Source: Winogradskyella ursingii (lineage in GTDB: Bacteria > Bacteroidota > Bacteroidia > Flavobacteriales > Flavobacteriaceae). From it: a DNA stretch of 64,000 nucleotides. This document shows, piece by piece, positions 5,379 to 10,155 of this stretch. The notes under the pieces were generated by a model, which was not told where the DNA came from, did no database searches, and saw only the letters and a list, made by a program, of their open reading frames with translations. The stretch is taken from NCBI RefSeq assembly GCF_013403975.1, contig NZ_JABFDH010000003.1, positions 434,001-498,000 of the forward strand. Direction: 5' to 3'. Position 1 is the stretch's first letter. Each line of letters opens with the position of its first letter. The position numbers and the translations under genes were made by a program.

Positions 5379-6557
5379 TTGAAAACTTCCATTTTAAATA
5401 CTCAAATTCAAAAGTTCATTAATTCAAATCTGAATGCAGATATAGCAGATTTATTATTAAAGGGTATTGCGTTTGACAATGTTGATAATACAACTATCAT
5501 AGAGCAAATTGAATCAAAAAAACGTGCTAAAAAAAAGTTACCCACTTGGTTCAATACTGAATATGTGTACTACCCAAATAAATTAAATATTGAGCAAACG
5601 TCCTCTGAAATAACAGCTGAGCATAAAGCTAAATTGGTTTCTGGAAAAAATTTAATCGATCTCACGGGTGGCTTTGGTGTGGATACTTATTACTTTTCAA
5701 AGCAAATTGAAAATGTGATCCATTGTGAAATCAATACAGAACTATCTGATATAGTAGCTCATAACTATCACAATTTACAAGTTTCAAATGTTGAATGTAT
5801 AAATGAAAATGGAATTGAAACCTTAAAAAAATTGGATAAGCAGTTCGATTGGATTTACATCGATCCTTCCAGACGGGACGATTCCAAAAACAAGGTGTTT
5901 TTAATAACGGATTGTACGCCAAACGTTAAAACGTATCAGGGGTTACTTTTAAAATATGCAGAAAACGTGATGATAAAAACATCGCCTTTATTAGATATTT
6001 CTGCCACACTTTTAGATTTAAGTAACGTCAAGGAAATTCACGTAGTCGCAGTAAATAATGAAGTAAAGGAGTTATTGTGGATTTTAGAACGCAACTATTC
6101 TGGATCCATTTTAATCAAAACAGTCAATATTCAAAAAGAAAACAAACAAACTTTTGACTTCTATTATGATGAAGAATCTACTGCAAAAGTTGAATACACC
6201 CGACCTTCTAATTATTTGTACGAGCCAAATTCAGCCATTTTAAAAGCTGGAGCATTTAATTCGGTTAGTTCTAATTTGGGAGTAAAAAAACTTCATAAAC
6301 ATTCGCATTTATATACTTCTGAAACATTAATTGATTTTCCCGGAAGACGATTCAATATTGAAAATGTTATTCCTTTTAATAAAAAGGCTTTTTCTAAATT
6401 AAAAATTCAAAAAGCAAATATCACGACTCGGAATTTTCCGCTATCTGTTGCGGACATTCGTAAAAAATTTAAAGTGAAGGATGGTGGAACTATTTATTTG
6501 TTCTTTACTACTAATTTAAACAATGAAAAAATAATTCTAATCTGTTCTAAAATTTAA
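5379..6557 (+). CDS. THUMP-like class I SAM-dependent methyltransferase
   Basis: A 392-residue protein with a Rossmann methyltransferase core: LIDLTGGFGVDTYYF (92-106) is the cofactor-binding motif I and IDPSRRD (161-167) is the motif IV-type catalytic stretch. The C-terminal 100 residues, with the PGRRFNIEN and RNFPLSVADIRKKF segments, match the THUMP-like domain found with this family in Bacteroidota. An RNA substrate is likely by analogy but unproven. The start is TTG, the only start giving the full N-terminal helix region. It converges with pdeM, overlapping it by 11 bases at the 3' ends. Confidence 0.82.
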   Translation: MKTSILNTQIQKFINSNLNADIADLLLKGIAFDNVDNTTIIEQIESKKRAKKKLPTWFNTEYVYYPNKLNIEQTSSEITAEHKAKLVSGKNLIDLTGGFGVDTYYFSKQIENVIHCEINTELSDIVAHNYHNLQVSNVECINENGIETLKKLDKQFDWIYIDPSRRDDSKNKVFLITDCTPNVKTYQGLLLKYAENVMIKTSPLLDISATLLDLSNVKEIHVVAVNNEVKELLWILERNYSGSILIKTVNIQKENKQTFDFYYDEESTAKVEYTRPSNYLYEPNSAILKAGAFNSVSSNLGVKKLHKHSHLYTSETLIDFPGRRFNIENVIPFNKKAFSKLKIQKANITTRNFPLSVADIRKKFKVKDGGTIYLFFTTNLNNEKIILICSKI

Positions 6558-7212
6558 AAATCGAGGTATCTGTAAAAGCATAACAAACCGAATCTTTTGG
6601 CTGAGAGCGCGTGTTCAACCCGGTAAATAAGCTAAATGCAGGCAATATAATTTGATGTCCACTCACTTGAAAACAGGGTAATTTTAAAAATTGTTTGCCT
6701 TTACCTTTTATCCTTACACCAGGATGGGTATGACCTGAAATCGTAAATTGTTCTGAATGCTTTTTTAAATGCTCATGCACAAAGGTGAAAGGTGAAATTT
6801 CCAATTCTTTTTCAATCTCAAAATCAAACTTTGAAACTATGTTTTTTGAAAGTCTATCGTGGTTTCCTTTAATCAGAACGATTTGTAAATCTTCAAACTG
6901 ATTTAGCCATAATTGAAAAGTGTCCATATCTACGTTAGCCTCCGCATGGAATAAATCACCAACAATCAATATTTTTTGAGCCTTGAGATAAAGAATCAAT
7001 TGTTTCAAACGTTCTAAATCGTTCTGAAGCACACCATCAGGCATAGGTATACCATGTTTTCTGAAGTGTGCGGTTTTACCGATATGTATATCGGATAGAA
7101 TCAAAGCACTTTCACGTTTCCAATAGATGGCGCGTTGATTGGTGAGTGTCAACGTTTCGTTTTTTACGGAAATATTTTCGGTAATGATTTTTAGTTTCAC
7201 AATTTTAGTCAT
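6547..7212 (-). CDS. pdeM: Ligase-associated DNA-damage-response phosphoesterase PdeM
   Basis: A 221-residue calcineurin-type metallophosphoesterase. The metal ligands are visible: DIHIG (41-45), GDLFHAE (85-91), GNHDR (116-120) and SGHTHPG (159-165). This family is found almost only beside an ATP-dependent ligase, an Lhr-like helicase and a beta-CASP exonuclease, which lie upstream here on the same strand. I use the ATG at 7212, since an upstream extension would run through a repeat element. That ATG is formed by the outer end of the repeat (reverse complement ATGAC). The 489-base interruption between helicase and pdeM is unusual for an operon otherwise joined by 4-base overlaps. Confidence 0.9.
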   Translation of the reverse strand: MTKIVKLKIITENISVKNETLTLTNQRAIYWKRESALILSDIHIGKTAHFRKHGIPMPDGVLQNDLERLKQLILYLKAQKILIVGDLFHAEANVDMDTFQLWLNQFEDLQIVLIKGNHDRLSKNIVSKFDFEIEKELEISPFTFVHEHLKKHSEQFTISGHTHPGVRIKGKGKQFLKLPCFQVSGHQIILPAFSLFTGLNTRSQPKDSVCYAFTDTSIFKF

Positions 7213-7293
7213 ATCGAACTTTCGTGAGACATCCCACATATAGCTCCATTCAAATCTCAAAATTATGTGATTTCTCGCTTTGCTCGAAATGAC
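7208..7293. repeat. Palindromic REP-like element, left copy
   Basis: An 86-bp imperfect inverted repeat beginning GTCATATCGAACTTTC and ending TTTGCTCGAAATGAC. The reverse complement of the right arm (GTCATTTCGAGCAAAGCGAG) pairs with the left arm with a few mismatches, so the transcript can fold into a long hairpin. A second copy in the same orientation lies at 7618-7698, on the other side of the GIY-YIG gene. The GTCATTTCGAGC...GAGAAATC sequence is, from memory, a common dispersed intergenic repeat of flavobacterial genomes. Confidence 0.9.
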
Positions 7294-7318
7294 TTCAAGC
7301 TTTTATTTATATTTATGG

Positions 7319-7618
7319 ATGCTTTATAATCACTTTGTGTACATAACAACAAATCCTTATAGAACCACACTATACATCGGAATAACAAATAACATTCAAA
7401 GAAGATTAGATCAGCATTTCTTTGACAGTCAGAATTCTAGAAAATCGTTTGCTGGTAAATATAATTGTATCTATTTGGTATATTACGAAGGATTTGAATA
7501 CCCGAGAGAAGCTATTTCAAGAGAAAAAGAATTGAAAAAATGGCGTCGTGAAAAGAAAAATAAATTGATTACAACGTTTAATCCTAAATGGAAAACTCTT
7601 AATAACCAAGTAATTTAG
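7319..7618 (+). CDS. Small GIY-YIG endonuclease domain protein
   Basis: A 99-residue single-domain nuclease. The GIY-YIG signature is split as VYI (7-9) and YIG (19-21), followed by TNNIQRRLDQH with the conserved Arg, and SREKELKKWRR (67-77) with the metal-binding Glu. This is the URI-like family, small proteins found in many copies in Bacteroidota. I choose the ATG at 7319, since earlier starts (7280, 7289) lie in the repeat and add an unrelated peptide. The gene sits antisense inside the ligase-associated operon and its TAG stop overlaps the first base of the right-hand repeat. Its role is unknown; a link with mobility of the flanking repeats is my inference. Confidence 0.85.
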   Translation: MLYNHFVYITTNPYRTTLYIGITNNIQRRLDQHFFDSQNSRKSFAGKYNCIYLVYYEGFEYPREAISREKELKKWRREKKNKLITTFNPKWKTLNNQVI

Positions 7619-7698
7619 TCATGTCGAACGTATGTGAGACATTGCATCCTCACTGAGTAGAATAAAATTATGAGATTTCTCACTATGCTCGAAATGAC
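7618..7698. repeat. Palindromic REP-like element, right copy
   Basis: An 81-bp imperfect palindrome in direct orientation to the copy at 7208-7293: it begins GTCATGTCGAACGTATGTG and ends ATGCTCGAAATGAC. The two copies share both outer ends and the ATTATG(A/T)GATTTCTC inner segment, but differ in the loop. The base changes in the arm (TTTCG/AAAGCG in one copy, TATG/ATAG in the other) go together on both sides, which suggests selection for the hairpin. It ends three bases before the stop codon of the helicase gene. Confidence 0.9.
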
Positions 7699-7701
7699 AA
7701 C

Positions 7702-10155
7702 TCAATCAATCTTAAATGCTTGTGCCTTAATACGCTGAATACGTTTATCCAAACTCTCATTGCTCATAGTTCCTCGCAGACTATCAACTTTAAGCGGGAA
7801 GCTCAAAGGTGTAAAAGATTTGGCATGTTTCAAAATGATTTTGCTCTTTGAAATACGCTCAAAAGCAGCTTGTAAACGTACCTCTTCTAATTGTTGGTTG
7901 AACACTTCCGTATAGGCTTGTTTCAATAACAAATTTTCAGGTTCATAATCTTCCAAAACTCTAAATATTAATCCTGAAGATGATTGCAGACTTTTATTAT
8001 TTTTTCGAGCGCCTGGTTGTGATTGTACTACCAAACCAGCTATTACTGCTATATCCCTAAATTTTCGAGATGCCATTTCTGACGCGTTAATACTCGCAAT
8101 CACATCATCCATTAGATTTTCCTTGCTTAGTAATTTTGAAATATTGGCTTCGGTTACTGGAATCGGTTGGTCGCTTAATAATTCAAAACCATAATCATTC
8201 ATCGCAATTGTAAAGGTTAATGGCTTTAATTTACTGATCCTGTATGCCATTAATGCCGAAAACACCTCGTGTACCAATCTGCCTTCAAATGGATACATAA
8301 ACAAATGATGACCGTCTCTTGTTCCAATCATTTCAACTAGAAACTCATCATCTTTTGGTATATGGGAATGATTATCTTGACGTGATAAAAGCGGGTTCAA
8401 AAATCGAAGTTCTTTTTCTAATCGTCCAGGTTCAAGCGCATCCGATAATTTTAACCGCATAAAGTGACTCAGGTGAGACGTCAAAGGCAAGCGACCACCC
8501 AACCAACTTGGCGTCACGGCTTTTTTGGCTTTGCTTCGACGAACCAAAACGGTCATATCTTTGATTTGTGCTAATTCCAGAACTCGGCCTGCCAAAATAA
8601 AATTATCACCAGGCTTTAGTTTCGAAATAAAGAACTCTTCAATCATACCAATATAGCCACCAGAAAAGAATTTGACCATTAACATCACTTCACTAACAAT
8701 AGCACCAATATTCATACGATGCAGCATACTAATGCGTCGGCTTTTTACTCTGTAAAGACCATCTTCATCTTTAATTACTTTATGAAATTCCTCATAAGAA
8801 CTCAGTGTTTTTCCGCCTTTAGTGACAAACTGTAAGCACCATTGCCATTCATCTTTAGTGATGTAACTAAATGCATGCGTTTCTTTTATTTGAATAAATA
8901 GCTTTTCAGAATCAAATCCCATGCCCACAGCGTTGGTAACCATAAACTGAATCAACACGTCAAACGTCATTACCATTGGATCGCGGGTTTCGATTTTATT
9001 TTGTTTTACGGCTTCCTTTAATGCCGAAACTTCCACCAATTCCAAAGAATGTGTAGGAATAAAATAAACTTTGGAACGCTCATATGGCGAATGACCACTG
9101 CGACCAGCGCGTTGCATAAAACGTGCTATGCCTTTAGCAGAACCAATTTGAATCACACAATCCACAGGCTTAAAATCCACACCCAAATCGAGAGAAGACG
9201 TACAGACCACAGCTTTTAAATAGCCGTTAGAAATGCTATCCTCAATCCAATTCCTCAGTTTCTTATCGATTGATCCATGATGAATAGCTAACAATCCAGC
9301 CAATTCCGGGTTGGCATTAAGTAATAATTGATACCACAATTCTGATTGGCCGCGAGTATTTGTAAATATTAAGGTTGTAGTGTTGTTTTCAATAATTGGT
9401 AAAATCTTATCTACCATTTTGGCACCGAGATGCCCTGCCCAAGGCAACACTTCTATTTCATCTGGCAAGACCGAAACAATATCAATTTTCTTTTTTTGTT
9501 TTGCTTTTATTTGAGTGACTTTTAAATTGGGATATGGCAATAGAACATGCTTTGCTTCCTCAAGATTACCAATAGTCGCTGTTATTCCCCAAATTTGAAG
9601 TTTCGGTGAATAGCTTCGTAATTGAGAAATTGCCAATTCCGTTAGTACACCTCGTTTATTCCCTAAAAGTTCGTGCCACTCATCAATAGCAACACATCTT
9701 ACATTTTTAAACCATCTCGAATTCTTCTTTTGTGAGAACAGCAAATGCATGGTTTCGGGTGTGGTGAGCAATACGTCAGGCATTAAGCGCTCTTGTTTTC
9801 GACGCACATTGGTTGGTGTGTCGCCATTCCGCACCTGAACTGACCAATCCAAACCAATCTCATCAACGGCTTCCGTCATCGCTTTTGCCAAGTCTTTTGC
9901 CAACGAACGCAAAGGGCTTATCCATAGTAGTTTCAATCCTTTTGGATATTTATCTGGATGATTTAAGTAATCGATAACTACAGCTAAAAAAACTGAAAAT
10001 GTTTTCCCAAAACCCGTTGGTGCCACTACCATTCCGCTGTAGCCATTGGCATAACGCTGCCAAGTTTGCGTTTGAAATGGAAAAGGCGCTTGGGCTTTCT
10101 CCGCCATCCAATTGTGGATAATCTGTAATCCTATGCTCTCGTTGAATTTGCTCAA
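7702..10155 (-). CDS. Ligase-associated Lhr-like DEXH-box DNA helicase
   Basis: An 817-residue superfamily 2 helicase of the Lhr type. Walker A is APTGFGKT (45-52), the DEXH box is DEWH (158-161), and motif VI is MQRAGRSGH. The length and C-terminal half match the shorter ligase-associated Lhr subgroup rather than the 1,500-residue Lhr. It presumably unwinds or remodels damaged DNA for the ligase and nucleases encoded with it. The start is TTG, overlapping the ligase stop (TTGA); an ATG 16 codons further in is possible but would lose residues before the Q-motif-like PFPFQ. The upstream neighbour is the ligase, downstream is the repeat and GIY-YIG insertion. Confidence 0.92.
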   Translation of the reverse strand: MSKFNESIGLQIIHNWMAEKAQAPFPFQTQTWQRYANGYSGMVVAPTGFGKTFSVFLAVVIDYLNHPDKYPKGLKLLWISPLRSLAKDLAKAMTEAVDEIGLDWSVQVRNGDTPTNVRRKQERLMPDVLLTTPETMHLLFSQKKNSRWFKNVRCVAIDEWHELLGNKRGVLTELAISQLRSYSPKLQIWGITATIGNLEEAKHVLLPYPNLKVTQIKAKQKKKIDIVSVLPDEIEVLPWAGHLGAKMVDKILPIIENNTTTLIFTNTRGQSELWYQLLLNANPELAGLLAIHHGSIDKKLRNWIEDSISNGYLKAVVCTSSLDLGVDFKPVDCVIQIGSAKGIARFMQRAGRSGHSPYERSKVYFIPTHSLELVEVSALKEAVKQNKIETRDPMVMTFDVLIQFMVTNAVGMGFDSEKLFIQIKETHAFSYITKDEWQWCLQFVTKGGKTLSSYEEFHKVIKDEDGLYRVKSRRISMLHRMNIGAIVSEVMLMVKFFSGGYIGMIEEFFISKLKPGDNFILAGRVLELAQIKDMTVLVRRSKAKKAVTPSWLGGRLPLTSHLSHFMRLKLSDALEPGRLEKELRFLNPLLSRQDNHSHIPKDDEFLVEMIGTRDGHHLFMYPFEGRLVHEVFSALMAYRISKLKPLTFTIAMNDYGFELLSDQPIPVTEANISKLLSKENLMDDVIASINASEMASRKFRDIAVIAGLVVQSQPGARKNNKSLQSSSGLIFRVLEDYEPENLLLKQAYTEVFNQQLEEVRLQAAFERISKSKIILKHAKSFTPLSFPLKVDSLRGTMSNESLDKRIQRIKAQAFKID

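Follow-up and report, generated by a model that had tools for sequence, protein, structure and literature searches.

The question raised by this locus is why a small nuclease gene lies antisense, framed by two copies of a repeat, within a ligase-associated DNA repair operon of Winogradskyella ursingii. The stretch of DNA analysed, 64,000 nucleotides in length, is referred to as the window, and coordinates without a further label are positions in it. A preliminary description had suggested that in this lineage a GIY-YIG protein may mobilise, copy or process hairpin repeats, i.e. that it may form a RAYT-like system with an unrelated nuclease. We consider it probable that this unit is a REP element of the autonomous kind, in which the GIY-YIG nuclease recognises the element's own hairpins and is responsible for their spread.

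Architecture of the unit

The features of the region, in serial order, are the following:

6547-7212, minus strand: pdeM, ligase-associated endonuclease (TIGR04123)
7208-7293, no strand assigned: left REPIN-like unit with GTC...GAC ends, same architecture as Azospirillum locus L081
7208-7232, plus strand: left unit, hairpin a, GTC + 9-nt stem ATATCGAAC + loop + GTGAGACAT, GA at stem positions 6-7 (read directly)
7270-7293, minus strand: left unit, hairpin b, GTC + ATTTCGAGC + AAA + GCGAGAAAT, GA at stem positions 6-7 (read directly)
7319-7618, plus strand: GIY-YIG nuclease gene, 99 codons plus TAG
7618-7698, no strand assigned: right REPIN-like unit, direct copy of the left unit (sequence alignment)
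7618-7642, plus strand: right unit, hairpin a, GTC + ATGTCGAAC + loop + GTGAGACAT (read directly)
7675-7698, minus strand: right unit, hairpin b, GTC + ATTTCGAGC + ATA + GTGAGAAAT (read directly)
7702-10155, minus strand: ligase-associated DEXH helicase (TIGR04121)

The two units of about 85 bp, as read from the window sequence, are in direct orientation and enclose the gene exactly as first described: the ATG is at 7319, and the G of the TAG stop (7616-7618) is also the first base of the right unit. The aligned blocks of the two units are 91% identical over 35 nt and 86% identical over 29 nt, with a spacing of 405 and 410, respectively. Each copy had been taken for an imperfect palindrome. 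A repeat is indeed present at both positions, but each copy is really two inverted GTC-tagged hairpins, i.e. a REPIN-like REP pair in head-to-head arrangement, bounded on the outside by GTC/GAC. Every hairpin consists of GTC, an AT-stem, GA, a loop and a stem, and all four follow the plan GTC + AT + NTC + GA + [AG]C, GTC being followed by AT in 4/4 cases. Note that the stems contain a tandem G-A mismatch, and that the units folded as single-stranded DNA are not clearly more stable than shuffled sequences (z -0.97 and -1.42).

The encoded protein is a single domain that matches Pfam GIY-YIG (PF01541, E 5.4e-17), and its predicted fold is confident (AlphaFold pLDDT 93.4). Y9, Y20, G22, R30, E70 and N89 are invariant among 40 relatives; these correspond to the Tyr, Tyr-x-Gly, Arg, Glu and Asn of GIY-YIG proteins, which we take to be the catalytic residues. 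The nearest solved folds, both weak matches, are UPF0213 protein BH0048 (E 1.1e-3) and Slx1 (E 2.8e-2). The small UPF0213/COG2827 proteins BH0048 and EF2693 are likewise single GIY-YIG domains of about 95-107 aa and give the top sequence and fold matches, but differ in that they were deposited as hypothetical proteins. The current annotation of such genes reads only 'GIY-YIG nuclease family protein'.

Host operon and empty sites

Within the ligase-associated repair operon the nuclease gene lies in antisense orientation, with pdeM and the helicase gene on its two sides, and the remaining two operon junctions are 4-base overlaps, as had been noted from the sequence. The empty sites expected between the two genes in relatives were found; most relatives lack the gene at this junction. 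Eighteen pdeM loci with an adjacent helicase gene were compared (the own genome and 17 relatives; three further pdeM loci, with no helicase gene in their stretch, were left out). The nuclease gene occurs in only two of them, the own genome and G017 (locus L101); in the other 16 there is no gene, and pdeM and the helicase gene overlap or abut in 11 (calculated gap below 0) and are 49-230 bp apart in 5. L101 carries a different nuclease, the same gene as at L045, and a different repeat family, which suggests two independent insertions at this junction. As a separate observation, the ATG of pdeM (minus strand, 7210-7212) comes from the GTCAT of the left repeat (7208-7212), so the insertion may have reset the N terminus of PdeM.

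A similar situation is seen at the sufB-sufC junction. Azospirillum lipoferum 4B has a REPIN-nuclease-REPIN unit between these genes (L081), and the same site contains neither the gene nor a GTC-tagged REP in A. ramasamyi, A. oryzae, B510 and A. argentinense; the B510 site has another, different inverted repeat. No target-site duplication was discernible when the occupied and empty Azospirillum sites were compared. The sufB-sufC junction of Shinella PSBB067 (upstream side inspected) is occupied by a different nuclease, accompanied by a different REP. A site filled in S. meliloti Ak57 is without the gene in Sinorhizobium K101, where REP remnants are kept, and Ak57 itself has an internally deleted copy beside a full one, with both REP ends retained.

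Copies in the genome and element ends

A 24-base consensus of the right half of the unit gave three matches (up to 3 mismatches) in the 3.48-Mb genome, two of them in the window, while the reversed control gave none; the pairing in the window is thus not due to chance. The third copy (L008:1445-1524, G000:C14:443584-443663) is a head-to-head REP pair without a gene. By the consensus pattern the repeat family is therefore of low copy number, three units in its own genome, and does not reach the high copy number of CGTC REPs, which was found in some alphaproteobacteria. No Y1 transposase (Y1_Tnp) was found in the own genome, and a RAYT was accordingly rejected as the mover there.

A second small GIY-YIG match in the same genome (L002, G000:C11:40905-41129) has an in-frame stop and is flanked by inverted CTGAACTCGTTTCAG palindromes; it is probably a degenerate representative of this class that carries another repeat. 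PF01541 matches in long open frames, among them UvrC-like ones, were not considered further.

Copies were compared in 20 stretches from 7 genomes, the clearest cases being those of G844 and G530. G844 has three copies on different contigs, pairwise 88-96% identical. All three agree fully across the right-hand REP as far as TGAC, beyond which they diverge. On the left side two of the copies have the REP and the sequence next to it in common, apart from an indel of about 60 nt behind the REP, while the match of the third copy is confined to the REP and the 30 bp that immediately precede the gene. The G530 pair is 99% identical, its members lie 6.4 kb apart, and the match stops three bases beyond the right tag. 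In other pairs the match extends well beyond the unit (L401/L400 and L411/L410) or ends at a position other than a tag (L414/L413). In other words, the left edge of the dispersed copies is less sharp than the right, GAC-tagged edge. No same-species insertion polymorphism was found in the genomes compared. Taken together, the patchy presence, the empty sites and the copy ends indicate that the whole unit is mobile.

Pairing of genes and repeats across bacteria

Flanking repeat pairs had been expected to be more frequent at small GIY-YIG genes than elsewhere, and a strong enrichment over control genes was seen in both sets that were analysed. In 40 stretches of the flavobacterial order the upstream and downstream flanks match at 19/45 GIY genes, compared with 10/462 control genes. 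In a GTDB genome scan we took the best 80 of at least 564 loci from named organisms, 6 of which were dropped from the flank analysis for incomplete flanks; here matching flanks were found at 52/74 GIY genes and at 17/634 control ORFs. According to the record titles, these best 80 of at least 564 loci come from alpha-, beta-, gamma- and deltaproteobacteria, Patescibacteria, Nitrospirae, Ignavibacteria, Planctomycetes, Anaerolineae and Omnitrophota.

The tags were investigated by counting the 3-mers just outside hairpins, no tag being presupposed. At the 74 GIY loci (from the best 80 of at least 564) GTC was found 122 times and TGG, i.e. the CCA tail, 108 times out of 499, the next 3-mer reaching 26. 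GTC was again the top tag in the control flanks, but with 122 of 2487. In the same 74 loci a CCA tail is present on 102 of the 122 GTC hairpins, and tags point outward more often than inward (upstream GTC> 44 versus 20, downstream <GAC 37 versus 21), which is as expected of element termini. GTC hairpins on both sides were seen at 31/74 of these GIY genes and at 2/96 control ORFs of 80-130 aa. A mismatch-tolerant REP caller found a REP at 68 of the 80 genes of the GTDB set (best 80 of at least 564) and at 90/626 controls.

In the flavobacterial set the same caller was also positive (11/44 genes versus 25/451 controls). A strict hairpin-tag scan of this set was borderline (8/44 versus 39/455, p 0.053), and in a first scan with perfect 6-bp stems GTC was enriched 2.3-fold at the flavobacterial genes and was not special among the tags. 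The perfect 6-bp definition is ill-suited to this set, since many of the stems have G-A mismatches.

Among 190 alphaproteobacterial genomes the gene is present in 56. The density of the pattern CGTCATN(14-20)ATCCA has a median of 7.0 per Mb in the 56 genomes with the gene and 4.4 per Mb in the rest (p 3e-7). The gene was undetected in 13 of the 29 alphaproteobacteria with a density of at least 10 per Mb; the pattern also gives chance matches.

Three further observations concern the settings of such genes. On a plasmid of Planktothrix agardhii (L084) a DISARM defence operon contains a REP-flanked GIY-YIG gene, with an MmeI-like gene on one side and drmA on the other. A Neisseria gonorrhoeae record (L080) contains a GIY-YIG gene, unannotated in the genome collection used, that is flanked by CGTCATTCCCGC repeats. 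At L035 (G038:C1:409180-412395) and L029 (G002:C8:101643-104855) a gene of a different GIY-YIG clade, of about 83 aa, stands immediately downstream of a putative tRNA 3' end, a second copy of which lies on its other side; this clade may be a tRNA-targeting relative with a duplicated attachment sequence.

Cognate pairs and covariation

Genome G197 has ten GIY genes, the repeats of which are mostly different from each other. Such genomes allow the flanks of one gene to be compared with those of other genes in the same genome, and this was done for G197, G165 and G077, the other multi-gene genomes being left out. Among their 20 genes the two flanks of one gene match in 12 cases, as opposed to 9 of 130 comparisons between different genes within a genome; none of 5000 permutations reached the observed mean. 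Matching flanks are absent at 8 of the 20 loci. The separation of genes and repeats is incomplete, since two of the nine cross-matches between genes are strong (32 and 21).

Residues just past the catalytic Glu covary with stem positions 6-7 of the repeat. The covariation set was reduced by the 79 of 263 genes that had no confident REP and by 26 more that were at least 75% identical to another gene. Residue-base rules fixed beforehand were correct in 23 of 29 held-out cases (shuffled mean 9.5), the held-out and training genes coming from the same searches and the same clades. The held-out set comprised 60 genes, 21 of them without a confident REP; 10 of the remaining 39 fell under no rule. The K/H70-C6 rule was true in only 10 of 16 held-out genes. 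For the motif AGSR, the first form, defined on an earlier group of genes, the counts were 18/20 versus 9/34; for K[AG]G[SN]R, which was refined on the same 54 genes in which it was counted by eye (the non-duplicate genes of 60 loci), they were 26/28 versus 1/26. In gammaproteobacteria the latter motif gave 6/7 versus 2/22, both exceptions being KSGSR. We conclude that nuclease and repeat are very likely coupled, and the covariation of residues with stem positions strongly indicates that the protein recognises its own repeat.

Comparison with known systems

The GTC/CCA hairpin found near GIY genes is the CGTC REP as characterised in the consulted parts of PMC3733652. According to these parts, CGTC REPs occur in five phyla and many genera, mostly as head-to-head dimers, the Neisseria CGTC-1 elements are equated with dRS3, and RPE-4 and RPE-6 of Rickettsia are also CGTC-tagged (PMC3733652). 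The window repeats share with CGTC REPs the GTC tag, the 8-9-bp stem beginning with AT and the head-to-head dimers. A [CT]GTC tag with an AT stem is seen in related loci, whereas 3/4 window hairpins have an A before GTC and 0/4 have a CCA tail.

The RAYT (TnpA-REP)/REP/REPIN systems are alike in that the gene is flanked by its own palindromic repeats, with inverted pairs and gene-free copies elsewhere, in that repeat families are tied to particular genes, and in that a sequence tag stands beside the hairpin. The RAYT enzyme, however, is a Y1 HuH transposase and its tag is GTAG, while here the enzyme is GIY-YIG and the tag is GTC (4/4 window hairpins; dominant in related loci). The Y1 HuH and GIY-YIG folds are unrelated. 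With the wrong enzyme and the wrong tag this is not a RAYT system, although it appears RAYT-like in its working. Homing endonucleases of the I-TevI type have the same catalytic fold and are likewise tied to their own mobility; the window unit differs from them in that it has no intron, no separate DNA-binding domain within its 99 aa, and hairpin repeats as boundaries. Pairs of IS and MITE are comparable in that an autonomous unit occurs with an internally deleted derivative that shares its ends, but the window unit has no DDE or other known transposase, its ends are REP hairpins, and no target duplication was seen. No paper connecting GIY-YIG genes with REPs was found in the open-access PMC literature, in agreement with the preliminary description, the author of which knew of no account of such a system. 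The passage of PMC12306157 that was consulted does not contain the terms RAYT, transposase or endonuclease.

Proposed mechanism and alternative explanations

The flank enrichment, the empty sites and the protein-repeat covariation make the RAYT-like reading with an unrelated nuclease the best account of the locus. This part of the preliminary proposal stands; its restriction to one lineage does not, since the pairing extends to many phyla and to the known CGTC REP superfamily. That the GIY-YIG protein itself cuts or moves the repeats is what we infer from its fold and from the analogy with RAYTs. The unit would be an autonomous mobile element that consists of a single gene with a repeat unit at either end; its single-domain nuclease would be dedicated to its own GTC-tagged hairpins. 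The nuclease would bind the hairpin via the stretch after the catalytic glutamate and may cut at or beside the GTC tag, the part that is constant across repeat families; the released or copied segment would then be inserted elsewhere, perhaps with the help of host repair. Gene-free REP pairs, i.e. REPINs and solo copies, would not be autonomous; they would be derivatives that are mobilised in trans, in the way that a transposase mobilises a MITE.

Homing enzymes are found among GIY-YIG nucleases, and the repeats could instead be spread by another agent, the gene having invaded REPs as a homing site. Recognition of the REP by the protein fits this equally well, direct copies of a whole REPIN on both sides (window and L081) could arise by insertion into a REPIN, and the gene-less Sinorhizobium K101 site has kept its REP remnants. 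On the other hand, insertion normally destroys the target, yet the REPs flanking the gene are intact, and single outward-tagged REPs are commoner, so the gene tends to sit in the frame of a REPIN and not within a REP. An interrupted target site or an intron or intein location, as is typical of homing endonucleases, is not seen either: the unit is intergenic, and the Azospirillum empty sites that were read, including B510 with its different inverted repeat, show no GTC-tagged REP. Moreover, the own genome lacks a Y1 transposase, and the consulted parts of PMC3733652 report no other mobilising enzyme for these repeats. We therefore regard homing into REPs as unlikely.

A resident, immobile host nuclease that processes REP hairpins (e.g. 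at forks or in mRNA decay) and is held near REPs by selection would likewise predict protein-repeat covariation, and the structure-selective nuclease Slx1 is among the nearest, if weak, fold matches. The patchy presence in alphaproteobacteria, the several genes per genome with mostly different repeats, the near-identical dispersed copies, the in-frame stop in the second own-genome match and the internally deleted S. meliloti copy all speak against such a role, which appears somewhat less probable still than homing. Finally, small genes might merely gather in repeat-rich intergenic regions; REPs are frequent in intergenic DNA, and GTC leads the control flanks too. GTC hairpins on both sides are nevertheless rare at control ORFs of similar size in comparison to GIY genes (best 80 of at least 564), and the residue-base links predicted held-out genes, which counts against a passenger unless the covariation is an artefact of REP calling. 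Chance or passenger status is rejected by the flank controls, permutations and held-out predictions, and we give it hardly any credence.

Significance

The describers of CGTC REPs stated in 2013 that these 'apparently lack a dedicated transposase' (PMC3733652, consulted in part), and a cognate nuclease for CGTC REP families would fill this gap. GIY-YIG nucleases that match the sequence of their own repeats are, on the sequence evidence, strong candidates for the missing movers. We also lean, with somewhat less assurance than for the element itself, to the broader view that stand-alone GIY-YIG nucleases are the dedicated mobilisers of the whole GTC/CGTC REP superfamily across many phyla, a second independent REP-moving invention with a nearly one-residue-to-one-base-pair code by which the cognate repeat could be read from the protein. 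The covariation offers a compact code of hairpin recognition that can be tested by one residue swap. If the proposal is true, REP mobilisation would have evolved at least twice, from unrelated enzymes, and a gene annotated only by its nuclease family would become that of a mobile-element enzyme.
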